Positions 4,135 to 38,297 of a stretch of DNA of 44,961 nucleotides are shown here, piece by piece. The notes below the pieces were generated by a model. That model was not told the DNA's origin. It made no database searches and saw nothing but the letters and a program-made list of their open reading frames with translations. The stretch's first letter is position 1. Each line of letters opens with the position of its first letter. This stretch comes from an uncultured Opitutia bacterium. Its GTDB lineage: Bacteria; Verrucomicrobiota; Verrucomicrobiia; Opitutales; UBA953. Made by a program: the position numbers and the translations under genes. The stretch spans positions 1 to 44,961 of the forward strand of contig CAMFKE010000011.1 of assembly GCA_945957395.1 (NCBI GenBank), written 5' to 3'.

Positions 4135-4992
4135 TTACACGCGAGGCAGCAGCGATTCCACCGGGGCGTGCAGGATGTCCGCGGGCGGCACGCCGCGGGC
4201 GAGCAGTTCGCGCAGCGCGAGCCCGGCGGTGCGCTTGGCGAGCCTGCGCCCTTGCGCGTCGCACACCAGGGGCGCGTGCGCCCAGGCGGGCGGTGGCGCG
4301 CCCAGGGCGCGGTACACGAGCAGCTGGCGCGCGGTGGACTTGAGCAGGTCGCGTCCGCGCACCACCTCGGTCACGCCCATGGCGAGGTCGTCGGCCACGA
4401 CGGCCAGCTCGTACGCCGGCACGCCGTCGCGGCGCCACACCACGAAGTCGCCGAAATCGCGGCCCGCCTCGAAGGCCTGCGCGCCGCACAGGGCGTCGTC
4501 GAAGCGCAGCGTCTCGCCGTCCGGTACGCGCAGTCGCCAGTTCCAGTCACCCGGCTCGGGAAAATCGCTTCCGAAGCCCGGGGCGGGCCTCCACTCGGGA
4601 GGGAAGATCGGTTCGGCGTCCTCCTCCGCATGCGGGGCGCCGAGCGCGGCGGCGACATCCTTGCGCGAGCGCCGGCATGGGTAGATGGCGCCGGCGTCGC
4701 GCAGTCGGCGCCAGCATTCGAGGAAGATCGGCGTGCGCCGGCTTTGCTCATACGGGGCGTGCGGGCCGCCCAGGTCCGGACCTTCGTCCCAGTCCAGCCC
4801 GAGTGCGCGCAGGTCGGCCATCGCGGCGAGCGCGTACTCGGGTTTGCAGCGCAGGAAGTCGATGTCCTCGATGCGGAAGATGAGCGTGCCGCCGGCGGCG
4901 CGGGCGCGCTCGTGGGCGAGGGCGAAGGTGCGCGCGTGGCCGAGGTGGAGAAACCCGGTGGGCGTGGGCGCGATGCGTCCGGCGTAGGGCAT
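4135..4992 (-). CDS. gluQ: Glutamyl-Q tRNA(Asp) synthetase
   Basis: GluQRS is a truncated GluRS paralog that activates glutamate and attaches it to the queuosine base at position 34 of tRNA-Asp. The 285-residue length fits; the anticodon-binding domain of true GluRS is absent. The class I signature is PTPTGFLHLGHA near residues 9-20 (H16-L-G-H19). A KMSKS-like RRLAKRTAG follows late in the protein. The family zinc site (C-x-C, Tyr, Cys) is mostly gone: YPCRRSRKD keeps only one Cys, and PIFPPEWR replaces the Tyr/Cys segment. It lies 76 bases downstream of the NIF3-family gene and may be cotranscribed with it. It belongs to the same modification pathway as tgt, 3 kb away. Confidence 0.93.
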   Translation of the reverse strand: MPYAGRIAPTPTGFLHLGHARTFALAHERARAAGGTLIFRIEDIDFLRCKPEYALAAMADLRALGLDWDEGPDLGGPHAPYEQSRRTPIFLECWRRLRDAGAIYPCRRSRKDVAAALGAPHAEEDAEPIFPPEWRPAPGFGSDFPEPGDWNWRLRVPDGETLRFDDALCGAQAFEAGRDFGDFVVWRRDGVPAYELAVVADDLAMGVTEVVRGRDLLKSTARQLLVYRALGAPPPAWAHAPLVCDAQGRRLAKRTAGLALRELLARGVPPADILHAPVESLLPRV

Positions 4993-5068
4993 GGAGCCGT
5001 GTTTCCGTTTTCAGTTTTCGGCGGCCGGTTGCGCGATCACCGAAACCGCAGCCGGCGAAAGCCTTCGC

Positions 5069-5836
5069 TCACAGCGGGCAGCCGGTGGCGACGAACTCCA
5101 CGGGCAGGCCGAAGCGCTCGCCGAGCTCCTTGGCCAGGGCGTGCACGCCGAACACCTCGGTCGCGTAGTGGCCGCACATATACAGGTTGAACCCAGCCTC
5201 CTGCGCCTCGTTGAAGTGCTCCTGGCGCAGCTCGCCGGTGATGAGCGTGTCGCAGCCCTGCGCCTTCAGGTGGTCCAGCGCCGAGCGGCCGCTGCCCGTG
5301 AGGATGGCCACCTTGCCGGGCACCTCCGCTCCGCACTCGATGGCCCGGAACGCCTTGGGGAACAGGGTGCGCAGCCGCGCCGACAGCTCGGTGCGGTGCA
5401 GCGCCCCGGTGTCGCACAGCGCGGCGATGGGCGTGCCCTCGTAGGGCAGGAACCACTTCGACACCGTCATTCCCAGCTTGCGCGCCAGCAGCGCGTTGTT
5501 GCCGATCTCCGGGTGCGCGTCCAGCGGCAGGTGGCTGCCGTACACGGCGATGTCGTTTTGGATAAGCGCGGCGTACTTCTCGTAGACCGGCCCGGTCACG
5601 GGCTCCTGCGGCTTCCAGAACAGCCCGTGGTGCACGACGAGGAAGTCGATGCCGCGTTCGGCGGCCATGCGGAAGGGCACCAGCCCGGCGTCCACCGCCG
5701 CGCCTATCTTCGTCACCTTGCCCGAGTTCTGGAACTGCAGGCCGTTGCGCGAGCCGGGGAAGTCCTTCACGGCGGCGATGCGGGTGCGCTCGTCGCAGTA
5801 CGCGACGACCTCGGCGAGAGTGGCGGAGTGTTTCAT
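5069..5836 (-). CDS. NIF3/DUF34-family metal-binding protein
   Basis: The 255-residue protein belongs to the NIF3 (YbgI, DUF34) family, often mislabelled GTP cyclohydrolase 1 type 2. Members bind two metal ions in a hexameric toroid; the cellular function is not settled. Visible metal-ligand motifs are VHHGLFW, YGSHLPLDAH and the C-terminal GHYATE. Start M at 5836 (MKHSATLAEVVAYCDE) matches the family N-terminus; an in-frame ATG at 5845 would add three residues. The gene is divergent from the U32 gene, with 117 bases between starts, and sits just upstream of gluQ on the same strand. Confidence 0.93.
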   Translation of the reverse strand: MKHSATLAEVVAYCDERTRIAAVKDFPGSRNGLQFQNSGKVTKIGAAVDAGLVPFRMAAERGIDFLVVHHGLFWKPQEPVTGPVYEKYAALIQNDIAVYGSHLPLDAHPEIGNNALLARKLGMTVSKWFLPYEGTPIAALCDTGALHRTELSARLRTLFPKAFRAIECGAEVPGKVAILTGSGRSALDHLKAQGCDTLITGELRQEHFNEAQEAGFNLYMCGHYATEVFGVHALAKELGERFGLPVEFVATGCPL

Positions 5837-5953
5837 GCCCGGCATGCAAAGTGCGCGCCGCGCGGTGAGAAGCGTGAAATGGGCCCTCGGTCGGGGCGCC
5901 GAAAAGAAGTTGCCGCTTGCTTGGGGCGCAAAAGCGCAATCCTGAGCGGCCTC

Positions 5954-8596
5954 ATGTCCGTTCACGCCTCCGCCTCCCCCGCCTCCTCCGTCGCCCGCCC
6001 GCTGCCGCTCAACGCCGCAGGCCTGCCCGTGAGCAAGCCCGAGGTGCTCGCCCCCGCCGGAGGCTGGGACTGCGCCCGCGCGGCCGTGGAGAACGGCGCC
6101 GACGCCATCTTCTTCGGCGTGGGCCGCTTCAACGCCCGCGTGCGCGCCAACAACTTCACGGAGTCCGACCTGCCCGAGCTCATGGCGTTCCTGCACTCGC
6201 GCGGCGTGAAGGGCTATGTCACTTTCAACACGCTCATCTTCGGCGACGAGCTCGCCGAGGCCGAGCGCTCCCTGCGCGACATCATCGCCTCCGGCGTGGA
6301 CGCGGCGATCGTGCAGGATGTGGGCATCTGCCGGCTCATCCGCCGCATCTCGCCCGATTTCCCCATCCATGCGTCGACGCAGATGACCGTCACCGGCTCG
6401 GCCGGCGTGGAGTTCGCGCGCGAGCTGGGCGCGGAGCTGGCGGTGCTGAGCCGCGAGGTGAGCGTGACCGAGATGCGCTCCATGCAGGAGGAACTGCTCA
6501 AATCCGGGCGCGCCATCCGACTGGAAACCTTCGTGCACGGCGCGCTGTGCGTGGCGTACTCCGGCCAGTGCCTCACCTCCGAGGCCCTCGGCGGACGCTC
6601 CGCCAACCGCGGCGAGTGCGCGCAGGCCTGCCGCCTTCCCTACGAACTCATTTCCGACGGCGCCAAGGTGGAGCTGGGCGACCGCAAATACCTGCTGTCG
6701 CCGCGCGACCTCGCCGGCATCGAGGTCGTTCCCGAGCTCATCCTCAACGGCGTCTCCTCGCTCAAGATCGAGGGCCGGCTCAAGACGCCCGAGTATGTGG
6801 CGGCCATATCGCGCGCCTACCGCGACGCCGTGGACCGCTGCTACGCCGCCATCGCCTCCGGCGTGACCGATTCGGCGAAGCTCGCCGAGGTCGCGCGCGG
6901 CGTGCGCGGCAAGTGGGAGTACGACCTGGAGATGTCGTTCTCGCGCGGCCTGTTCACCGGGTGGCTGCAAGGCATCGACAACCGCCGCCTCGTGCACGCG
7001 CGCTTCGGCAAGAAGCGCGGCGTCTTCCTCGGCGAGGTGCTGCGCTCGCGTCCCAACGGCGTGGAGCTGCGCCTGGCCGGCCCGCTCAAGCCCGGCGACG
7101 GCGTGGTGTTCGACGACGGCCGCCCCGAGGCGGGCGAGCAGGGCGGCTTCGTGCACGGCGTGGAGAGCGGCCCCGGCGGCGTGTCCTTCGTGCGCTTCGC
7201 CCGCGAGGCCGTCGACTTCCGACGCGTCGCGCCAGGACAGAAACTTTGGAAGACCTCCGACCCCGCGCTCACCGCCGAGCTGCGCGCCACCTTCGCCGGC
7301 GACAAGCCTCGCTTCCGCCGCCCCGTGGAGTGGCGCGTGTGGGCCGCTCCCGGCAGCCCGCTGCGCGCCGAGTTGCGCGACGGCGAGGGGCATGTCGTGG
7401 CGGGCGAATCCTCCGCGCCCTGCGAAATCGCCCAGCAGCGCCCCATGACGCGCGAGACGCTCGCCGACCAGTTCGGCCGCCTGGGCGGCACCCCGTTCGA
7501 CCTCGGCTCGCTGCACGCCGACATCGAGGGCTCGCCCATGCTCCCGGTCAGCGAGCTCAACCGCCTTCGCCGCGACATGGTCGCGCGTCTGGAGGCGCTG
7601 CGCGCAGCGCCCAAGCGCTGGACGCTCGCCGCGGAGGCCGCGCCCGAGTCGGCGCCCCTGTGGCGCATCGACGGCCCCCGCGCCGTGTCGAGCGCCGGCC
7701 GCGTGGCCTCGCCCGAGATCATCCCCGTGGTGCGCAAGCCCGAGCAGATGGACGCCGCGCTGCGCTGGGGCGCCGACACCGTTTACTGCGAGTTCGAGGA
7801 CCCCAAGAAGTACCGTGACGCCGTGAAGAGCGTGCGCGCGCACTCCGAGGTGTCCGGGCGCAAGGTCGAGGTGTGGGTGATGCCGCCGCGCCTGTTCAAG
7901 CAGGGCGAGGAGTGGATGGTGAAGCAGGTGCTCTCGTGCGAGGCCGACGGCTACCTGGCCCGCTGCCACGAGCACCTGCGCGAGTTCGAAAAACTCGGTC
8001 TGCGCCGCCGCGGCGACTTCTCCCTGAACGTGGCCAACCCGCTCGCCGCCGAGTATTTGAAAAAGCGATACGGGCTGGAGCGCCTCACCGCCGGCTACGA
8101 CCTCAACGCCGCCCAGCTCGACGCCCTCCTGGAAGGCGCCCCGGCCGACTGGTTCGAGGTCACGCTGCACCAGCACATGCCCATGTTCCATATGGAGCAC
8201 TGCGTGTTCTGCTCGTTCCTCTCCAACGGCAAGGATTACCGCGACTGCGGCCGCCCCTGCGAGAAGCACGAGGTGCGCCTGCGCGACCGCGTGGGCATGG
8301 AGCACATCCTTCTGGCCGACGCCGGCTGCCGCAACACCCTCTACAACGCCCGCGCCCAGACGGGCGCCGAGGTGGCCGAGGCGCTGCTGGCGCGCGGCGT
8401 GCGCCACTTCCGCGTGGAGTTCGTGGACGAGTCGCCCGACACCCTGCTCACCACGCTCAACCGCTACCGCGCCCTGCTCGCCGGCGAGATTTCCGGCGCC
8501 CAACTCTGGCGCGAACTGAAGCTGGATAACAGGCTGGGCGTCACCCGCGGCACGACCGTCGAGAAGCTGCGCCCGCCGGGCACCAAGGGCTTCTGA
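5954..8596 (+). CDS. Large U32-family protein, RlhA-like (rRNA C5-hydroxylation type)
   Basis: U32 'peptidases' are now known as iron-sulfur RNA or quinone hydroxylation factors (RlhA/YdcP, TrhP, UbiUV). The N-terminal half shows the RlhA pattern: EVLAPAGGWD at the start, HASTQMTVT in the barrel, and four Cys, C199, C206, C222 and C226 (GECAQACRLPY), suited to a 4Fe-4S cluster. At 880 residues it is longer than E. coli RlhA. The C-terminal half carries a second Cys set, C750, C753, C765 and C769 (EHCVFC...CGRPCEKH). The ATG at 5954 is chosen because family homology begins about 30 residues later and upstream sequence overlaps the divergent NIF3 gene. It ends at a strong terminator. 23S rRNA modification is likely but the exact substrate is uncertain. 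Confidence 0.93.
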   Translation: MSVHASASPASSVARPLPLNAAGLPVSKPEVLAPAGGWDCARAAVENGADAIFFGVGRFNARVRANNFTESDLPELMAFLHSRGVKGYVTFNTLIFGDELAEAERSLRDIIASGVDAAIVQDVGICRLIRRISPDFPIHASTQMTVTGSAGVEFARELGAELAVLSREVSVTEMRSMQEELLKSGRAIRLETFVHGALCVAYSGQCLTSEALGGRSANRGECAQACRLPYELISDGAKVELGDRKYLLSPRDLAGIEVVPELILNGVSSLKIEGRLKTPEYVAAISRAYRDAVDRCYAAIASGVTDSAKLAEVARGVRGKWEYDLEMSFSRGLFTGWLQGIDNRRLVHARFGKKRGVFLGEVLRSRPNGVELRLAGPLKPGDGVVFDDGRPEAGEQGGFVHGVESGPGGVSFVRFAREAVDFRRVAPGQKLWKTSDPALTAELRATFAGDKPRFRRPVEWRVWAAPGSPLRAELRDGEGHVVAGESSAPCEIAQQRPMTRETLADQFGRLGGTPFDLGSLHADIEGSPMLPVSELNRLRRDMVARLEALRAAPKRWTLAAEAAPESAPLWRIDGPRAVSSAGRVASPEIIPVVRKPEQMDAALRWGADTVYCEFEDPKKYRDAVKSVRAHSEVSGRKVEVWVMPPRLFKQGEEWMVKQVLSCEADGYLARCHEHLREFEKLGLRRRGDFSLNVANPLAAEYLKKRYGLERLTAGYDLNAAQLDALLEGAPADWFEVTLHQHMPMFHMEHCVFCSFLSNGKDYRDCGRPCEKHEVRLRDRVGMEHILLADAGCRNTLYNARAQTGAEVAEALLARGVRHFRVEFVDESPDTLLTTLNRYRALLAGEISGAQLWRELKLDNRLGVTRGTTVEKLRPPGTKGF

Positions 8597-28845: not shown

Positions 28846-30876
28846 TCACTTGGCGGGCGTCGGCGATTCGCCGAGCAGTTCCTTGAGCGGGAAGCGCACG
28901 AACCAGATCTCGTTGCGTCCCTCGTAGAGCGCGCCCACGGCGTCCTTGCCGATGGGGGCGATGCTGGAGTAGCCGCTGGTGAAGCGCGAATCGTACAGGG
29001 TGTGCATCTCGGCGGGCCAGGTGGCGCCCATGTCCTTGGAGATTTTCATCGTCATCATGCTGCGCCAGCCGCCGGAGATGGCGGGGTTGGAAAACACCAG
29101 CAGCGGTCCGTGCTTGTCGGTGTCCACGCGCAGGATGGAGCCCTGGCAGACCGGGCAGGGCAGCGCCTTGCGGTCGGTCTCGTGCAGCGTCCAGGTGGCG
29201 CCGAGGTCGTTGGTCACGCCCACGGTGCGGAAGCCGCCGCGGTTGTCGCGGCAGTTGAGCATGAGCGAACCGTCGGCGAGCTCGACCACCTGGGCTTCGG
29301 TGGTGTTGGACTTGATGCCCGTGCCGGATTTCCAGGTTTTGCCGCCGTCCTTGGAGTAGATGAGGGTGGAGAAGGGGGTGCCCTTCTTCTTGCCCTGCTC
29401 GTTGAGGTCGCCGTCCTGGTACTGGGCGGGGAACACGAGCGTGCCGTCCTTCATGGCGATGCCGGCGCCGGGGCCGTTGAAGAACAGGTGCCAGTCGGGC
29501 TTCTTCACCTGCTCGGTGATGTTGACGGGCTTCGACCAGGTGAGGCCGTCGTCGTCGGAGTAGGCGAGGACCAGCTGGCCGGTCTCGTCGGGCGTCATGC
29601 CCTTGCCCGAGCCGGCCCAGGCGCGGTTGCCGTGGCTCCAGAGGGCGGCCACCCAGATGCGGCCGGTCTTGGGATCCACCAGCACGGCGGGGTCGCCCAC
29701 GCCGTCCTTGCCGCCCTTGCCCATGTCCAGCGCGATGCCCATGGGGCCCCAGGTCTGGCCGCCGTCGGTGCTGCGCGAGACGCCCACATCGATGTTGGCG
29801 GGAAGGTCGCCGCCGTGCTCGTAGCGGATGTCGTAGACGGCGATGAGCGTGCCCTTGTTGGAGGTGGCCAGGCCGGGGATGCGGTAGAACTTCGATTTGT
29901 CGTCGCCGTGCAGGCGCACGCCGTAGCCGATGCGCTGGCGCCCGGCCGGTTCAGGGTTGTCCGCCTGCAGCGTCCTGCCGTCGGAGAAGCTCGCCGAGCG
30001 CACGCCGGCGTCGATGCGCCGGTCGAGCGAGGCGCCCGCGGCGGGCTCGATGAACACATGGAAGTAGTTGTCGCCGTGCGCGAGCGGCAGGTCGCCGGTG
30101 AACACCAGCTCGCGCGCCGGCTTCACGGCGGCGCCGAACACCGTGTAGGGCGTCTCGTCGTCCATGAGGATCTTTTCGCGGTTGGTGCACACGACGCGCA
30201 CTCCGGCGATGTCGGCGAGGTTGTCGGTGCCGTTGAGGGTGACGGCCACGCGCTTGAGCCGCTGCGGGTTGAGCTGGCCGCTCGCCGAAATCTTGAAGGA
30301 CACGGCGGGGTTGTCCTTCTTGCGGATGAGCATGGGCACGACCGGCTGGGTCACCTCGAGCGCGGTGGCGAGCATGGGCTTGGCCGCCTCGGCGCGCACC
30401 TCGGAGAGCACGACGCCGGCGCCCTCGGGCGCCTGGGTGGTGAAGCGCAGCGTCTTCACGCCGGCGGGGATCTCCACGGCGAACTCGGCGCCGGCGCCGG
30501 TCTTCACGGTCTTCTCGCCGTCGAAGAGAGAGCGCGCCTTGCCCGAGGCGTCGAGGCCCTCGACGGTGAACTTGAAGGGCGCCTTGCCCGACCAGCGTTC
30601 GGCGCGGAAGGTGAGCATGCCGCCCTTGGCGAAGTTGGCGGCCGGCGTGAAGGTCACGCTGCGCGACTCCTTGCCTTCGCCGGCGCCGAACAGGCGCAGC
30701 GCCTTGCCGGACGGCTTGCCGTCGCGGATCTCGGCGTGGCCGGCCTCGGCCGACCAGGCGCCCTCGGGGGATTTGGCGGCCGTCAGGCGGCCCTTGGTGA
30801 AGGTGGAGAAGTCCTCGGCGCGCAGGGCGGGCGCGAGGAGTGCGGACAGGGCGAGCAGGGTGAGGGCGGGGCGCAT
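28846..30876 (-). CDS. Exported GH33 sialidase, copy 1
   Basis: The 676-residue protein has a signal peptide ending near PALRA, then EDF. Residues about 25-310 are a BNR-associated N-terminal domain. A GH33 six-bladed propeller follows. It has FYRIPGLA with R332 of the Arg triad, the AVYDIRY Asp acid/base region, and several Asp-boxes (SRSTDGGQTW, YSKDGGKTW, TNDLGATW). Further on are a Tyr in GYSSI and a Glu in YEGRNE. It should release terminal sialic acid from glycans outside the cytoplasm. It is a tandem copy of the gene at 31092-33143 and shares a 281-bp identical tract with it. Its own terminator is at 28790-28825. Confidence 0.93.
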   Translation of the reverse strand: MRPALTLLALSALLAPALRAEDFSTFTKGRLTAAKSPEGAWSAEAGHAEIRDGKPSGKALRLFGAGEGKESRSVTFTPAANFAKGGMLTFRAERWSGKAPFKFTVEGLDASGKARSLFDGEKTVKTGAGAEFAVEIPAGVKTLRFTTQAPEGAGVVLSEVRAEAAKPMLATALEVTQPVVPMLIRKKDNPAVSFKISASGQLNPQRLKRVAVTLNGTDNLADIAGVRVVCTNREKILMDDETPYTVFGAAVKPARELVFTGDLPLAHGDNYFHVFIEPAAGASLDRRIDAGVRSASFSDGRTLQADNPEPAGRQRIGYGVRLHGDDKSKFYRIPGLATSNKGTLIAVYDIRYEHGGDLPANIDVGVSRSTDGGQTWGPMGIALDMGKGGKDGVGDPAVLVDPKTGRIWVAALWSHGNRAWAGSGKGMTPDETGQLVLAYSDDDGLTWSKPVNITEQVKKPDWHLFFNGPGAGIAMKDGTLVFPAQYQDGDLNEQGKKKGTPFSTLIYSKDGGKTWKSGTGIKSNTTEAQVVELADGSLMLNCRDNRGGFRTVGVTNDLGATWTLHETDRKALPCPVCQGSILRVDTDKHGPLLVFSNPAISGGWRSMMTMKISKDMGATWPAEMHTLYDSRFTSGYSSIAPIGKDAVGALYEGRNEIWFVRFPLKELLGESPTPAK
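29232..29512 (-). repeat. 281-bp tract identical to 31469-31749 (sialidase 1 side)
   Basis: Every base compares as identical to 31469-31749, offset 2237 bases. The flanking coding sequence of the two genes differs at many positions. The tract covers the Asp-box/propeller core. Confidence 0.92.
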
Positions 30877-31091: not shown

Positions 31092-33143
31092 TCACTTGGC
31101 CTGTTCGCCGAGCAGCTCCTTGAGCGGGAAGCGCAGGTAGTACAGGTCGCAGGGGCCTTCGTACACCACGCCCACGGCGTCCTTGCCGACCGGCGACAGG
31201 CACGAGTAGCCGGCGCCCTTGCGCGAGTCGTACAGCGCCTGGTTTTCCTCGGGCCAGGTGGTGCCGAAGTCCTTGGAGATCTTCACGGTCATGTTGTAGC
31301 GACCGCCGCCGGAGACGGCGGGGTTGGAGAACACCAGCAGCGGTCCGTACTTGTCGGTGTCCATGCGCAGGATGGAGCCCTGGCAGACCGGGTCGCGCAG
31401 CGCCTTGCGGTCGGTCTCGTGCAGCGTCCAGGTGGCGCCGAGGTCCTTGGTCACGCCCACGGTGCGGTAGCCGCCGCGGTTGTCGCGGCAGTTGAGCATG
31501 AGCGAACCGTCGGCGAGCTCGACCACCTGGGCTTCGGTGGTGTTGGACTTGATGCCCGTGCCGGATTTCCAGGTTTTGCCGCCGTCCTTGGAGTAGATGA
31601 GGGTGGAGAAGGGGGTGCCCTTCTTCTTGCCCTGCTCGTTGAGGTCGCCGTCCTGGTACTGGGCGGGGAACACGAGCGTGCCGTCCTTCATGGCGATGCC
31701 GGCGCCGGGGCCGTTGAAGAACAGGTGCCAGTCGGGCTTCTTCACCTGCGGGGTGATGTTGATGGGCTTCGACCAGGTGAGGCCGTCGTCGTCGGAGTGC
31801 ACCAGCACGAACTGGCCGGTCTCCTCGGGCGTCATGCCCTTGCCGGAGCCGAACCAGGCGCGGTTGCCGTGGCTCCACAGGGCGGCCACCCAGATGCGGC
31901 CGGTCTTCGGGTCCACCAGCACGGCGGGGTCGCCGATGCCGTCCTTGGTGCCCGGTCCCATGTCCATCGCCACGCCCATGGGGCCCCAGGTCTGACCGCC
32001 GTCGGTGCTGCGCGAGACGCCCACATCGATGTTGGCGGGAAGGTCTCCGGCGTGGTTGTAGCGGATGTCGTAGACGGCGATGAGCGTGCCCTTGTTGGTC
32101 GTGGCCAGGCCGGGGATGCGGTAGAACTTGGACTTGTCGTCACCGCGCAGGCGCAGGGCGTAGCCGATGCGCTGGCGGCCTTCCGGCTCGGACACGGCGG
32201 GCTTGACCGTCTTGCCGTCGGAGAAGGTGGCGGAGAGCACGCCGGCGTCGATGCGACGGTCGAGCGAGGCGCCGGGGGCGGGCTCGATGAGCACGCTCAG
32301 CTCGTTGTCGCCGTGCTTGAGGGGCAGTTCGCACTCGAACACCAGTTCGCGCGCGGGCTTCAGCACCGGGCCCACGGCCACGAAGTCGCTGTTGGCGATG
32401 GCTTCGCCGTTGGCCTGCAGCTCCTTGGCTGCGGCGCCTTCGGCCTTCACGCCCAGTCGCACGCCGGCGATGTCGGCGAGGTTGTCGGTGCCGTTGAGGG
32501 TGATGCTCAGGCGGGTGAGCTTGACCTGGTCGAGCTGGCCCTTGGTGGTCAGCTTCACCGCCACGGCGGGGTTGTCCACCTTGCGGATGAGCATGGGCAC
32601 CACCGGCTGGGAAACTTCCATGGCGACGACCTGCATGGGCGCGGCCTTCTCGGCGCGCACATCGGTCAGGATGACGCCGGCGCCCTCGGGCGCGTTCGAC
32701 GAGAAGCGCAGCGTCTTCACGCCCGCGGGCACTTCCACGGCGAAGGCCGAGCCGCCGGCGCCGGTCTTCACGGTGTTGTCGCCTTCGAACAGGCGCGTGG
32801 CCTTGCCGGCGCCGTCGATCGCCTCGACCGAGAACTTGAAGGGCTTTTTGCCGGACCAGCGTTCGGCGCGGAAGGTGAGCATGCCGCCCTTGTCGAGGTT
32901 GGCCGTCGGCGTGAAGGTCACGCTGCGCGCCTCCTTGCCTTCGCCGGCGCCGAAGAGGCGCAGGGCCTTGCCCGCCTCCTTGGCGTCGCGGATCTCGGCG
33001 TGGCCGGGCAGGGCGTTCCATGCGCCTTCGGCGGACTTGGCGGAGGCGAGGGGCCCCTTGGGGAAGGTGGTGAAGTCTTCGGCGGCGAGGGGGGTGGTGA
33101 AGGCCGCGAGAGCGATGAGGGAAAGCAAGGGTCGGTTCATCAT
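31092..33143 (-). CDS. Exported GH33 sialidase, copy 2
   Basis: The 683-residue protein parallels copy 1: signal peptide ending FTTPLAA then EDF, BNR-associated N-terminal domain, and GH33 propeller with FYRIPGLA (R342). The same set of Asp-boxes is followed by GYSCLSPVG and VYEGPCDLYYLRFPL. Copy-specific changes include RKALRDPVCQG instead of RKALPCPVCQG and GGGRYNMTVKIS instead of GGWRSMMTMKIS. A third-Arg residue is kept in both. It may differ in linkage preference from copy 1, but this is inference. The next ATG, at 33140, is an equally good start. Confidence 0.93.
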   Translation of the reverse strand: MMNRPLLSLIALAAFTTPLAAEDFTTFPKGPLASAKSAEGAWNALPGHAEIRDAKEAGKALRLFGAGEGKEARSVTFTPTANLDKGGMLTFRAERWSGKKPFKFSVEAIDGAGKATRLFEGDNTVKTGAGGSAFAVEVPAGVKTLRFSSNAPEGAGVILTDVRAEKAAPMQVVAMEVSQPVVPMLIRKVDNPAVAVKLTTKGQLDQVKLTRLSITLNGTDNLADIAGVRLGVKAEGAAAKELQANGEAIANSDFVAVGPVLKPARELVFECELPLKHGDNELSVLIEPAPGASLDRRIDAGVLSATFSDGKTVKPAVSEPEGRQRIGYALRLRGDDKSKFYRIPGLATTNKGTLIAVYDIRYNHAGDLPANIDVGVSRSTDGGQTWGPMGVAMDMGPGTKDGIGDPAVLVDPKTGRIWVAALWSHGNRAWFGSGKGMTPEETGQFVLVHSDDDGLTWSKPINITPQVKKPDWHLFFNGPGAGIAMKDGTLVFPAQYQDGDLNEQGKKKGTPFSTLIYSKDGGKTWKSGTGIKSNTTEAQVVELADGSLMLNCRDNRGGYRTVGVTKDLGATWTLHETDRKALRDPVCQGSILRMDTDKYGPLLVFSNPAVSGGGRYNMTVKISKDFGTTWPEENQALYDSRKGAGYSCLSPVGKDAVGVVYEGPCDLYYLRFPLKELLGEQAK
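31469..31749 (-). repeat. 281-bp tract identical to 29232-29512 (sialidase 2 side)
   Basis: This is the partner copy of the perfect identity tract in sialidase 1. Both copies are inside coding sequence, and their ends are not flanked by any IS-like sequence. Confidence 0.92.
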
Positions 33144-33377: not shown

Positions 33378-35063
33378 ATGGATTCCCCTTCTTCCCCCCA
33401 CGACGAAACCGTCAACGAGCCCGCCGGCGCCAGGCTGTTGAGAAACCCGTGGCTGTGGGTCGGCGTGTTCGCCGCCGGCGTGGCGTTGGTCGGCGCCTTT
33501 GCCTTTCTCGCGCAGCGCGACAAACGCCTGGCGCGCGAGGAATACGACAAGGCCCTCAGGGATTACCTGGCCGCCGGCCTTCCGGACCCGTTCGCCACGC
33601 CCGCCCCGCGCGGCCCCGTGCCGACCGCCGCTCAGGGCAACCTGCTGTTCGCCCCGGTCTTCGACGGGCTTATGGTCATTCGCCCGGGCAGTGGCGTTTA
33701 CGCCAACTGTTCGGCGAACGAGAGTGCCGCGATTCGCGCCAAGCTGAACGCTGTGGGCCAATTCACCTTCTGCGCCTCCGGCGCACCCTTCTGGGCGTTT
33801 GATCCCGCCGCGCACTTCGCACGCAAGCCGGGCCTTTCGACGCTCGTCGCTGCGCAGCAGTCCGGGGAGTCGTCCACGCGAGCGTTCATCGTGCCGTTGG
33901 AGCGCGAGTTCCCCGAATTGAAGTCGCTCGCGCAGATCGAGGCGTCCCACCCGCTGGCCGTTTCGGCGGCGCCGGCGTGGTCGTTGCTGCATGGCAACGA
34001 TATTCCCGTGCCGGAATTCAAGAGTGCGCGGGCGACGATTATGGTCATGACCGCGTACGCCGGGTGCAAGGCGTTGGAGGGCGACGGCGCTCCGGCGGCC
34101 GCCGCGGTCTGCGGTCTGGCGCGTCATTTCGAGGCGACCGATGCCGCCGAGGGGCAATCGCTCGTGTCCTCCATGCTCAATGTGGTGATCGCGAAAATCT
34201 CGATTCCGCGTCTCACGCATCTGGCCATCCGCGAGGGCGTGTGGACGGACGAGCAACTGCGCCGCGTGGGCGAACGCCTCGGGTGCGTGAGGCTTAAGGA
34301 CTCCATGCTGGCCTCATTTTGTTTCGAGAGCCGTGCCTCGTTGGTGATTCTGAAGGGAATAGGGGATCGGGAGCCCGGGTCGCTGCGTGTTGCGAATGGT
34401 TTGATATCCGGGTTGAGCGAGTGGTGTCCGGAGATGCAGGCTGCCTTGAGCGAGCCGGGGCTTTGGCGCAACGCCACCGGGGTGCTCGGGGTTCTGCGAA
34501 GCGTGGCCGATTCTCGCAACGCGCGCGGGCAGGTCGATGTGGCCGGGGTCGTCGCGCTCATGGATTCGATTGCGCTTCAAGCTCCGTCGGCCTCGAACGC
34601 CTATATGCAGCTGTCCATTCCGGCTTATTCAAAGGTGCTGGCCAACGCCGCCCAGGCCGACACGCACCTGGCTTCCGCCCGCCTGGCCTGCGCTCTGGAA
34701 CTGTACCGGCGCGCACATGGCGCGTATCCGGAAAAACTCGACGCTCTCGTCCCGCAGTACCTGCCGTCGTTGCCGGTGTCGCCCTGGGTCGGCGGAAAAC
34801 TTGAGTACGCCGTCACGCCTGCCGGCTACACGCTCAGCTGGCCCAAGGCCGACTACTACGACTCGGGATTGGGCGGAGTGAGCGTGGATGTTCAGCACCC
34901 GGGCCCTTGGGAAATCCTGGGCGAGAAAATTGAGCTGCCGAAGCGCATCCGATGGTTCGACACGCGCACGGTCACCACTTCCGTGGCCGCACCCAAGGAC
35001 ATCGTGTGGACGATGCCGGCGCCGAAGAATGCCAAGGGTTTCGCGACCCCCTCGACGAACTGA
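33378..35063 (+). CDS. Membrane-anchored protein of unknown function, paralog A
   Basis: The 561-residue protein has a short cytoplasmic N-terminus, one strong membrane segment (PWLWVGVFAAGVALVGAFAF, about residues 25-45) and a charged helix (RDKRLAREEYDKALRDYLA). Most of the protein then faces the periplasm. Near the C-terminus the segment ASARLACALELYRRAHGAYP and the following PEKLDALVPQYLPSLPVSPW resemble a pseudopilin-like C-terminal motif of planctomycete/verrucomicrobial exported proteins. No enzyme motif was found. It is tandem with paralog B, 41 bases downstream. Ends of the two are nearly identical, and the middle is diverged. The start at 33378 is chosen to match paralog B; an in-frame ATG at 33342 is possible. 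Confidence 0.85.
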   Translation: MDSPSSPHDETVNEPAGARLLRNPWLWVGVFAAGVALVGAFAFLAQRDKRLAREEYDKALRDYLAAGLPDPFATPAPRGPVPTAAQGNLLFAPVFDGLMVIRPGSGVYANCSANESAAIRAKLNAVGQFTFCASGAPFWAFDPAAHFARKPGLSTLVAAQQSGESSTRAFIVPLEREFPELKSLAQIEASHPLAVSAAPAWSLLHGNDIPVPEFKSARATIMVMTAYAGCKALEGDGAPAAAAVCGLARHFEATDAAEGQSLVSSMLNVVIAKISIPRLTHLAIREGVWTDEQLRRVGERLGCVRLKDSMLASFCFESRASLVILKGIGDREPGSLRVANGLISGLSEWCPEMQAALSEPGLWRNATGVLGVLRSVADSRNARGQVDVAGVVALMDSIALQAPSASNAYMQLSIPAYSKVLANAAQADTHLASARLACALELYRRAHGAYPEKLDALVPQYLPSLPVSPWVGGKLEYAVTPAGYTLSWPKADYYDSGLGGVSVDVQHPGPWEILGEKIELPKRIRWFDTRTVTTSVAAPKDIVWTMPAPKNAKGFATPSTN

Positions 35064-35104
35064 CTTCGTCCCTTCCGGACCCCGTTTTTCCAAAAACGAT
35101 TCCC

Positions 35105-36778
35105 ATGTCATTCACCCAAGACGAAACCGTCAACGAGCCCGCCGCCGCCAGGCTGTTGAGAAACCCGTGGCTGTGGGTCGGCGTGTTCGCCGCCGGTGTG
35201 GCGTTGGTCGGCGCGTTTGCGCTGAAGGCGGAGCGCGACAAACGCCTGGCGCGCGAGGAATACGACAAGGCCCTCAGGGATTACCTCGCCGCCGGCCTTC
35301 CGGACCCGTTCGCCGCGCCCAAGTCGCCCTCGCCGGTGCCGACCGAAGCGGAGGGCAACCTGCTGTTCGCGCCGCCGTTTGACGGATTGGCTGTGGTGAA
35401 GGCGGAGCCGCATGTGTTTTTCCCTTCTCCGATTCAGCCGTTCTCGGCGAATGAGCACGCCGCCATCCGCGCGAAGGTGAGAGAGGTGGGGGTCTTTAAA
35501 TTCAGTTCGAAGCCCGGTGACTTTACGGGGTTCGACCCGGGCTCTCACTTCGCGTCAAGGTCGAGGCCTTCGAACTTCATTGCGGCACCCAAGCTAGGGG
35601 AGAGCCCCACGCAGGCGGTTATCGTGACATTGGAGAGAGAATTTCCGGCGTTGAAAGCGCTGCCGGAGATCGTGGCGAAGCACCCCCTGGTGGTGATGCC
35701 GCATCCGGATTGGCCGGTGGAGCATTGGGCGGCGAACGGTCTGGCGGATTTTCCGAGTGCGCGGGCCACGGGCATGGTGCTTACCTCCTATGCAGGGTGC
35801 AAGGTGCTTGAAGGTGACGGCGCTCCGGCGGCGGCCGTCGTGAGTGCGATATCGCGACATGCCGCAGCTTGTAGGCATGAGGCTCCGATTGTTTTCGTGT
35901 CAATCAGCCACATCATCATGGATTTTTCGATCCCGCGCCTCACGCACCTTGCGATACGCGAGGGGGTTTGGTCGGACGATCAGTTGCGCCGGGCCGTCGA
36001 GGATTTGGGCCGTGCGGATTCTGTCGATGCGCTGCGCAGGGCCTTCTCGACGGAGGCGCGTGACGCGCTGGTTTTCATGCGTAAGGCTGCGGAAAACGAC
36101 CCTGCTGCCATGGGCGTCGTCCGAGGTTTCGCCGCCAACGGAAGCTACTGGTCCGACAGTTTCACTCTGTTGCTGGGCGAAGCGTGTCGTTGGAAGAACG
36201 CGACGGCCATTCTTCGCGGTGAACTCGGACGATTCGCGGTGGTGAATGTGGCGGGGCAGTTCGACCGGGCGAAGCTCGTCGCGGATTACGACGAGCAAAC
36301 CCGGCGCGCCGCACGTCCTGAGGATGGAACTGAATTCACCTTCGATGTCTTTGTCGGTTACCCGAGCGTGACCGCCCGTGCCGCGGGTGTGTATTGCCGC
36401 GTGCGCAGCGCACGCCTGGCGTGCGCGCTGGAGCTGCATCGGCGCGCGCGCGGCGCGTATCCGGAAAAATTGGAGGCATTGGTGCCGGAGTATCTGCCGG
36501 CGCTGCCGGTGTCGCCGTGGGCCGGTGGTAAACTGGAGTACGTCGCGACGCCCTCCGGCTATACGCTCACCTGGCCCAAGGCTGATTTTTACGATGGAGG
36601 CCAAGGCGGCATGGGGGAACTGCGGATCGATCGCAGCCACCCGGGCCCTTGGGAGATCCTGGGCGAAAAATTTGAGCTGCCGAAGCGCATCCGGTGGTTC
36701 GACACGCGCACGGTCACCACCTCCGTGGCCGCGCCCAAGGACATCGTGTGGACGATGCCGGCGCCGAAGGCCCGGTAG
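35105..36778 (+). CDS. Membrane-anchored protein of unknown function, paralog B
   Basis: The 557-residue copy of paralog A has the same anchor (PWLWVGVFAAGVALVGAFAL), RDKRLAREEYDKALRDYLA helix and C-terminal pseudopilin-like motif (ALELHRRARGAYPEKLEALV). In the region between, similarity is low, apart from patches such as RLTHLAIREGVW. The pair therefore shares structure but may recognise different ligands. It starts 41 bases after paralog A ends, so the two are likely cotranscribed. The TraB-like gene starts 100 bases later. Confidence 0.85.
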   Translation: MSFTQDETVNEPAAARLLRNPWLWVGVFAAGVALVGAFALKAERDKRLAREEYDKALRDYLAAGLPDPFAAPKSPSPVPTEAEGNLLFAPPFDGLAVVKAEPHVFFPSPIQPFSANEHAAIRAKVREVGVFKFSSKPGDFTGFDPGSHFASRSRPSNFIAAPKLGESPTQAVIVTLEREFPALKALPEIVAKHPLVVMPHPDWPVEHWAANGLADFPSARATGMVLTSYAGCKVLEGDGAPAAAVVSAISRHAAACRHEAPIVFVSISHIIMDFSIPRLTHLAIREGVWSDDQLRRAVEDLGRADSVDALRRAFSTEARDALVFMRKAAENDPAAMGVVRGFAANGSYWSDSFTLLLGEACRWKNATAILRGELGRFAVVNVAGQFDRAKLVADYDEQTRRAARPEDGTEFTFDVFVGYPSVTARAAGVYCRVRSARLACALELHRRARGAYPEKLEALVPEYLPALPVSPWAGGKLEYVATPSGYTLTWPKADFYDGGQGGMGELRIDRSHPGPWEILGEKFELPKRIRWFDTRTVTTSVAAPKDIVWTMPAPKAR

Positions 36779-36878: not shown

Positions 36879-38297
36879 ATGCCTCGCCCCTTCGCCCTCC
36901 TGTCTTCGCTCCTTCTCGCCGCCGCGCTCGCCCCGTTGCACGCCGCCGGCACCGCCGCCACGACCGCGTCGGCGCCTGGCGAAAAGGCCGCCGCCGGGCC
37001 CGCGCGCGCCGCCGAGGCCAAGACGGAGCCCTACTGCCGCTACGACACCTCGCCCAAGGGCAAAGGCGATTTCGAGGTGCTGGTGCGCCGCTTCCGTCAT
37101 CCGGAAACGGGGCGCGAGGTGACGCTCGCCGGCATGATCCACTTGGCCGATCCGGCCTTCTACGCGAAGATCGACAGCCTCGGCGACCGGCACGACGTGG
37201 TGCTGCTGGAGGGCGTGAAAGGCTCTCCCACCTTCTTCAGCCTGCCCCTGATTTACACCGCCCACCTGGGCTCGCGCCTCATCGACCCCGCCGCGCTCGA
37301 GGGGCAGAACGATCACCTGCGCTCGACCGGGCCCAACCGGCACAACGCCGATGTGACGATGGACCAGCTGGGCGACCGCACGGGCGTCTCGCTCGGTCTG
37401 GTGTCGCTGCCCTTCGTCGTCGTGGGCGGCGAAACCGCCTATGCTCTGGAAACCGTGGCGGAGCAGCTCGCCTGGCTCACCGGCAACGACGACTCGCTCG
37501 CTCGCGCCTCGCGCGAGATGCTGGCGGACACGCTGGTGAACGAGTCGCCCAAGCTGCGCGACGAGGATTTCGACCGGGTCATCCTGCGCGACCGCAACAC
37601 GCATGTGCTGGAGGTGCTCGACGGCGAACTGCGCAAGCCCGGGTCGCGCACCATCCTCATCCCGTGGGGCGCCGCCCACCACCCGGGGCTGGAGCAGGGG
37701 CTGCGCGAGCGCGGCTTCGAGCCGGTGCAGGACGAGTGGCTCACCGCCGTGGCGGTGCGCAGCCTGGGCCGTACGCCGGAGACCGACCCCGGTTTCCGCT
37801 GGCGTCTGCCCTACGCGATGCGCCTTCGCTTCTCCGACACCACCTCGTCGGTCGACGGGCCTCTGTCGCTGCTGGCCTATCACCATTCCCCGCGCTCCCA
37901 CGCCCACTCCTCGCTATGGGGCCTGCTTCATTCCCGCGAGGTTTCCGACACCGAGTCCTCCTTCTCCCTGCTCGGCGGCATCGCCTGGTCCGGCGTCCGC
38001 GACACCGAAAAGGGCGAACGCGAACGCTCCGCGCTGGCCTGGCTCTGGCGCGAGTCGCACTCGCCCCTGCATGACGCCACCGAGTTCGGCTGGTGGGGCT
38101 TCCTGGGCGCTTCGCGCGTGGAGCGCGACGACTCCGGCCGCGAGGAGTCCTCGTCGTGGCACCTGCCGCTCACATTCGGCCGCCGCCCGCTGCTGTACCG
38201 CGAGGAGGTGCGCCCCTCCGGCGAGACCGTTCACCGCTTCCTTCTCTTCTTCAAAACCGTGACGCCCCCCGCCGCCTCCGGCGAAGCGGCGCGCTGA
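36879..38297 (+). CDS. Exported TraB/TIKI-like protein
   Basis: The 472-residue protein has a signal peptide (LLAAALAPLHA). The body shows TraB/TIKI/PrgY-superfamily hallmarks. These are TLAGMIHLADPAFYAKI near residue 85 (GxxH), VLLEGVKG, and IPWGAAHHPGLEQGLRERGF near residue 270, with the second His pair. Members of this fold include putative metal-dependent proteases and pheromone-shutdown proteins. Residues about 320-460 are a second domain with the ring of a beta structure (LLGGIAWSGVRD, EFGWWGFLGASRV), not identified. Catalytic function is inference. It follows paralog B on the same strand. Confidence 0.85.
   Translation: MPRPFALLSSLLLAAALAPLHAAGTAATTASAPGEKAAAGPARAAEAKTEPYCRYDTSPKGKGDFEVLVRRFRHPETGREVTLAGMIHLADPAFYAKIDSLGDRHDVVLLEGVKGSPTFFSLPLIYTAHLGSRLIDPAALEGQNDHLRSTGPNRHNADVTMDQLGDRTGVSLGLVSLPFVVVGGETAYALETVAEQLAWLTGNDDSLARASREMLADTLVNESPKLRDEDFDRVILRDRNTHVLEVLDGELRKPGSRTILIPWGAAHHPGLEQGLRERGFEPVQDEWLTAVAVRSLGRTPETDPGFRWRLPYAMRLRFSDTTSSVDGPLSLLAYHHSPRSHAHSSLWGLLHSREVSDTESSFSLLGGIAWSGVRDTEKGERERSALAWLWRESHSPLHDATEFGWWGFLGASRVERDDSGREESSSWHLPLTFGRRPLLYREEVRPSGETVHRFLLFFKTVTPPAASGEAAR

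Follow-up and report, generated by a model that had tools for sequence, protein, structure and literature searches.

Tandem membrane-anchored paralogs of a family with a GspG-like C-terminal module in an uncultured Opitutia bacterium: ends probably homogenised by gene conversion, middles older and diverged

Results

The window, that is the whole stretch of 44,961 nt that was analysed (positions 1 to 44,961 of contig CAMFKE010000011.1, assembly GCA_945957395.1, from an uncultured Opitutia bacterium), includes two paralogous genes, A and B, that lie on the same strand between a pair of sialidase-like genes and a TraB-like gene, with B downstream of A and a spacing of 41 nt (Table 1). Hydropathy of the two sequences predicts one N-terminal hydrophobic segment in each protein, in keeping with the original prediction of membrane-anchored paralogs, and the charge rule does not decide their orientation in the membrane. 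Neither protein has a match above the curated cut-offs of Pfam, NCBIfam or PADLOC, and a role in anti-phage defence was dropped as a candidate for want of a PADLOC match. AlphaFold2 models from two-row alignments were too low in confidence to be used, with a pLDDT of 31 for full-length B and 38 for the C-terminal piece of A. Directly downstream of B, the gene at 36879-38294 (+) has a weak TraB/PrgY/gumN match below the Pfam cut-off, and elsewhere in the window, at 4991-8596, very long open frames overlap on the + and - strands.

Table 1. Coordinates, within the window, of features of genes A and B and of the neighbouring sialidase pair
Feature	Position	Strand	Remarks
Gene A, 561-aa membrane-anchored protein	33378..35063	+	ATG 33378 to TGA 35063; family profile matches whole length
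Gene B, 557-aa paralog of A	35105..36778	+	ATG 35105; 58% identical to A
Predicted transmembrane segment of A, residues 26-44	33453..33509	+	Kyte-Doolittle 2.29; sole TM-like segment; no prepilin motif
Predicted transmembrane segment of B, residues 22-40	35168..35224	+	Kyte-Doolittle 2.09; no prepilin motif
Middle of A, residues 99-430	33672..34667	+	43% amino-acid identity to B; silent sites saturated
C-terminal GspG-like module of A, including lineage-specific insertion	34629..35030	+	part of the alignment behind the family profile that hits GspG structures
C-terminal GspG-like module of B	36362..36775	+	aligned in family profile matching GspG structures
~37-aa insertion (..HPGPWEILGEKIELPKRIRWFDTRTVTTSVAA) of A	34881..34991 (approximate bounds)	+	common to A and B; other aligned family members without insertion
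5' tract of A, probably homogenised	33390..33667	+	278 nt, 88% to B
5' tract of B, probably homogenised	35108..35385	+	278-nt direct repeat, 88% to A
3' tract of A, probably homogenised	34896..35027	+	132-nt direct repeat, 95% to B
3' tract of B, probably homogenised	36638..36769	+	132-nt direct repeat, 95% to A
Conversion tract in sialidase 1	29119..29478	-	no silent differences from sialidase 2
Matching conversion tract in sialidase 2	31356..31715	-	no silent differences from sialidase 1

The DNA of the two genes is nearly identical at both ends, as had been read from the sequence beforehand with coordinates that were right to within a few bases. The repeat finder returned a further direct repeat of 186 nt (34676-34861 and 36409-36594, 81%) and a weaker one in between, of 119 nt (34009-34127 and 35742-35860, 72%). 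The middles had been called poorly alignable, and while they are indeed diverged, this was overstated: in a global alignment the proteins align from end to end with few gaps at 58% identity overall and 43% in the middle, with a fall to 25% at residues 296-355.

Silent sites follow the same outline. Computed by NG86, dS between A and B is 0.16-0.22 over the first 85 codons and then 0.50, lies mostly at 1.3-3.2 in the middle, where it is saturated, with values of 0.8-0.9 at residues 146-255, and toward the C-terminal end passes from 0.78-0.96 at residues 418-524 to 0.44 and then 0.25 within the final 60 codons. At sites with identical amino acids, the same codon is used in 92% of cases at the N-terminal end (residues 1-76 of A), 46% in the middle and 85% at residues 500-551, and the shares predicted from local codon usage are 55%, 42% and 57%, respectively. 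Clustering of silent identity was compared with shuffled sites (P ~2e-4 for the block of high silent identity, ~1e-4 for the one of low identity), and the contrast between ends and middle exceeds chance. Selection at the protein level cannot lower dS in this manner. The ends share a younger common ancestor than the middle. The dN/dS ratio comes to 0.50 for the N-terminal part, 0.37 for the middle and 0.24 for the C-terminal part, with windows of 0.2-0.5 across a middle in which dS is saturated, and the diversifying selection that had been suggested for this region finds no footing in these ratios. The middle of A and B instead probably diverges under purifying selection.

The middles also stand out in codon usage, which had been noted as less biased than that of neighbouring genes. 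GC3 is 0.81 for A and 0.76 for B, compared with 0.90-0.97 for twelve other genes of the window, and is lowest in the middles (0.795 in A and 0.705 in B), with 0.86-0.87 in the 5' ends. The genome has a third paralog, unlinked to A and B and located on a different contig (G000:C4:12322-13797, locus L003); it aligns through the middle of both A (E 2e-14) and B (E 5e-12) and has a GC3 of 0.776, as low as that of A and B. Because this unlinked paralog is equally low, low GC3 looks like a trait of the family and not the mark of a replaced middle; low codon bias is likely a family property in this genome, and a foreign origin of the middles, considered on the basis of GC3, was dropped. Domain replacement, which had been proposed from the DNA, is not supported: the middles share homology with one another and with this third paralog, and their similarity to the ends of the alignment fades gradually and has no sharp junctions.

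The neighbouring tandem sialidase-like genes (28849-30876 and 31095-33143, both on the minus strand, with BNR_2/BNR_3 and BNR_assoc_N domains) have a dS of ~0.3 over most of their length and a run of ~120 codons with no silent difference. This run, an independent local example of the process, indicates that conversion between tandem copies has been active here. No close relatives turned up in scans of the GTDB 220 genome collection and of viral contigs, the plasmid collection gave no match, and the genomes searched included no second one from the window's genus.

Conserved ends and diverged middles, the arrangement originally described for A and B, hold for this pair and recur in other tandem arrays of the family. 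Over the first 70 codons, copies a and b of genome G133 are identical at 91% of amino acids and 93% of silent sites (35% and 35% in the middle), the pair in G145 at 81% and 79% (30% and 27%), and all three pairs in G294 at 91-99% and 89-93% (51-53% and 47-54%). Identity over the last 110 codons is also raised in G294, and the pair in G434 is raised at the C-terminal end alone. The contrast of homogenised ends is absent from six other tandem arrays (L065, L068, L069, L060, L089 and L090).

G133 and G145 belong to the same genus and their family arrays are syntenic, and in these arrays paralogs are seen to be closer than orthologs in the converted part with the reverse elsewhere. In a tree of the middle, G133b groups with G145y (49% amino-acid identity, bootstrap 100), while in a tree of the N-terminus the G145 copies group together (bootstrap 89) and G133 a and b are placed together. 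N-terminal amino-acid identity is 0.95 and 0.88 within the two species versus 0.72-0.76 between them, and N-terminal silent identity between the species is only 0.62-0.67, from which it follows that the ends are not constrained at silent sites. The b/y duplication is older than the split of G133 and G145, the anchors were homogenised later within each species, and the pattern is the signature of partial concerted evolution. By analogy with these arrays, A and B may have had the same history of homogenised ends and older middles.

A and B belong to a family in which a single N-terminal anchor, a helical middle and a C-terminal GspG-like module follow one another. With a four-row profile, members turned up in 23 of 273 genomes of the order; a twelve-row profile detected them in 148 of 288 genomes sampled across the phylum, and it was common for a genome to carry several of them, arranged in tandem. 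One N-terminal hydrophobic segment is present in 21 of the 22 members examined, the exception being L016, for which the start was probably mis-called, and in these 21 net positive charge is usually higher before the segment than after it. The prepilin motif (G followed by a hydrophobic residue, with E at +5) is absent from A, B and 20 relatives. An alignment of 13 members held no stretch conserved enough for scanning, and a search of the open-licence literature found no relevant paper on the family, its GspG-like domain or its link to ECF sigma factors.

An alignment of 20 C-terminal pieces centres on ALxxYxxxHGxYPxxLxxLvPxYLxxxPxDPxxGxPLrY, S-x-G and D-D-G-G. When the family's C-terminal profile was compared with the PDB, the eight best matches were all GspG-type pseudopilin chains (GspG/EpsG/PulG), led by 2kep with an E of 3.3e-7, and the Pfam model T2SSG matches 12 of the 20 pieces at E up to 1 (best 5e-5). 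Against the GspG proteins of the window's own genome, which has two clear GspG genes, hhalign gave an E of 2.9e-6 for the family profile and 0.15 for the A/B pair alone; the T2SSG model alone matches A with an E of 0.33. A third, weaker T2SSG-like match lies in the same genome at G000:C2:135573-135896. Family members and GspG (T2SSG, PF08334; PDB 2kep, 3gn9, 3fu1, 4lw9, 1t92) have in common a C-terminal region of ~100 aa with a helix ending in ALxxYxxxHGxYP, the motif LvPxYLxxlPxDPxxGxPLxY, S-x-G and a D-x-x-D-x-G loop, and a terminal DIxW. Unlike GspG, the family lacks a prepilin N-terminus and has ~340 aa of helical protein between the anchor and the module; A and B, in the alignment, have in addition lost several loop residues, among them those of S-x-G and DDGG, and carry the ~37-aa insertion. 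Judged on these sequence matches, the module is GspG-like at the level of the family, with A and B as apparently derived members.

Among 42 loci that were hand-picked from the family matches, 11 are directly preceded, on the same strand, by an ECF sigma gene, mostly with a gene for a small one-TM protein in between, and for these hand-picked loci the adjacency expected at 10-30 ECF genes per genome is 0.2-0.5% per locus (P below 1e-15). The linked sigma factors used to build a subgroup profile have a common NTAASRYRY motif and match Pfam sigma-70 regions 2 and 4. Among the genomes listed, ten have a linked ECF that scores ~140 bits or more, and in each of them no other protein matches the subgroup profile better; five of the ten had been left out of profile building; the linked ECF of G143 is a weak match (54 bits). 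The ECF subgroup, a one-TM protein of 120-140 aa and a family gene form a conserved trio at L055, L056, L057, L060, L062 and other loci. The small one-TM protein matches no Pfam family, anti-sigma models included. There is no ECF gene beside A and B or beside the unlinked paralog, and this genome's nearest ECF gene to the subgroup does not adjoin a family gene.

Discussion

A and B are probably old tandem duplicates within a verrucomicrobial family of envelope proteins. Low dS at the ends next to saturated dS in the middle makes it very probable that gene conversion has homogenised the ends and that the middles are older and diverging. Repeated short conversion events between the two genes would keep the first ~80-100 codons alike, a stretch that would span a cytoplasmic tail, the membrane anchor and a juxtamembrane helix, as well as the last ~50 codons at the end of the GspG-like module. 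In the middle, conversion would either no longer reach or not be retained, leaving this part to diverge under purifying selection. The change in dS is gradual and not stepped, which fits overlapping conversion tracts and not a single swap of a module. Between A and B there is partial silent-site homogenisation beyond what constraint accounts for, as in concerted evolution, and neither a dN/dS above 1 nor a foreign middle, as would be expected of a diversifying system or one of recognition modules, was found.

One alternative is that recombination through the conserved ends gave one copy the middle of a diverged paralog, as in variable recognition modules. Both genes do retain nearly identical ends, and copy x in G145 has a middle that is no closer to any one of the other copies than to the rest, all being remote; we nevertheless consider such a replacement quite improbable, given a dS gradient that extends over hundreds of bases with no sharp joints, middles that are typical of the family and align in both genes to the same paralog, and the clear ortholog that the G133b middle has in G145y. 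Conversion could also be dispensed with altogether. The silent sites of the ends might be constrained by translation start, RNA structure or codon use, and GC3 is indeed higher in the 5' ends than in the middle, but codon agreement at the two ends is far above that predicted from local usage, the homogenised 5' stretch is ~280 nt long, and the low N-terminal silent identity between G133 and G145 stands against 0.93 and 0.79 within the species, making this reading very unlikely. Positive selection on the middle of a recent duplicate, again with no conversion, would account for the middle being the fastest-changing part, with amino-acid identity that drops to a quarter in places. It is extremely unlikely, as protein-level selection could not produce a dS of 1.3-3 in most of the middle beside 0.16-0.25 at the ends, and dN/dS in the middle windows stays well below 1. 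Gene conversion of the ends remains the most likely cause.

As to what the proteins do, the bulk of A and B would lie in the periplasm, and the two would use the same partners in the membrane and at the C-terminus while their middles differ in specificity; the middle may be the part that bears specificity. A signalling role is suggested by relatives whose genes follow those of a dedicated ECF sigma factor and a small membrane protein, and by analogy the family would be the extracytoplasmic arm, or a main target, of an envelope signalling system. Like sensors or targets in operons of ECF sigma and anti-sigma factors, many family genes come after an ECF sigma gene and a gene for a small one-TM protein; the difference is that A and B lack such a neighbour and the small protein matches no anti-sigma model in Pfam. 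Being outside an ECF operon, A and B may be controlled from another place in the genome or may have acquired a different role. The functional part of the explanation is put forward as tentative and open to real doubt, while the explanation as a whole, evolution and function together, seems likely.

It has also to be considered that A and B are accessory parts of a type II secretion pseudopilus, in which the GspG-like end would join or cap the fibre and the middle would handle the substrate. The family's C-terminal profile and the two clear GspG genes of this genome are compatible with such a role, as are the arrays L063 and L064, in two related Opitutales-side species, which lie near PilT/GspE-like and GspF-like genes (from a look at the sequences only). 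It is nonetheless unlikely, with a prepilin cleavage motif in 0 of the 22 members tested, an ECF sigma gene as the most consistent neighbour, and the SxG and DDGG residues of the module lost in A and B. A wider proposal, which we would regard as speculative and view with considerable doubt, is that the signalling reading of the family extends to an undescribed, phylum-wide class of envelope receptors, with an anchor and a GspG-derived coupling module that are kept interchangeable by recurrent conversion inside tandem arrays, flank a fast-evolving ligand-binding middle and signal via the ECF subgroup and the small membrane protein.

Partial conversion in which a functional part is left untouched is best known among receptors of eukaryotes, TLR1/TLR6 being an example. 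In mammals, conversion keeps one region of TLR1 and TLR6 alike while other domains diversify (PMC2077338), and of the systems compared this pair appears to be the nearest analogue in process: these too are tandem paralogs of membrane proteins, with a converted stretch that includes the transmembrane and signalling part in each species and a remainder that diverges (PMC2077338). They differ from A and B as eukaryotic receptors of unrelated sequence and known function, with one converted block and not both ends. In prokaryotes, long-lasting concerted evolution is reported to be rare (PMC6053082); the cases described there likewise have paralogs that are closer than orthologs through recurrent homogenisation, but concern genes of key pathways, while here homogenisation is limited to the ends and leaves out the middle.

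A bacterial family that repeats partial conversion in several lineages provides many natural replicates of the process. It is also a common gene family for which there is no Pfam or NCBIfam model and which is worth describing, and with a pseudopilin-like domain outside the secretion pilins and a linked subgroup of ECF sigma factors, its role is directly testable.
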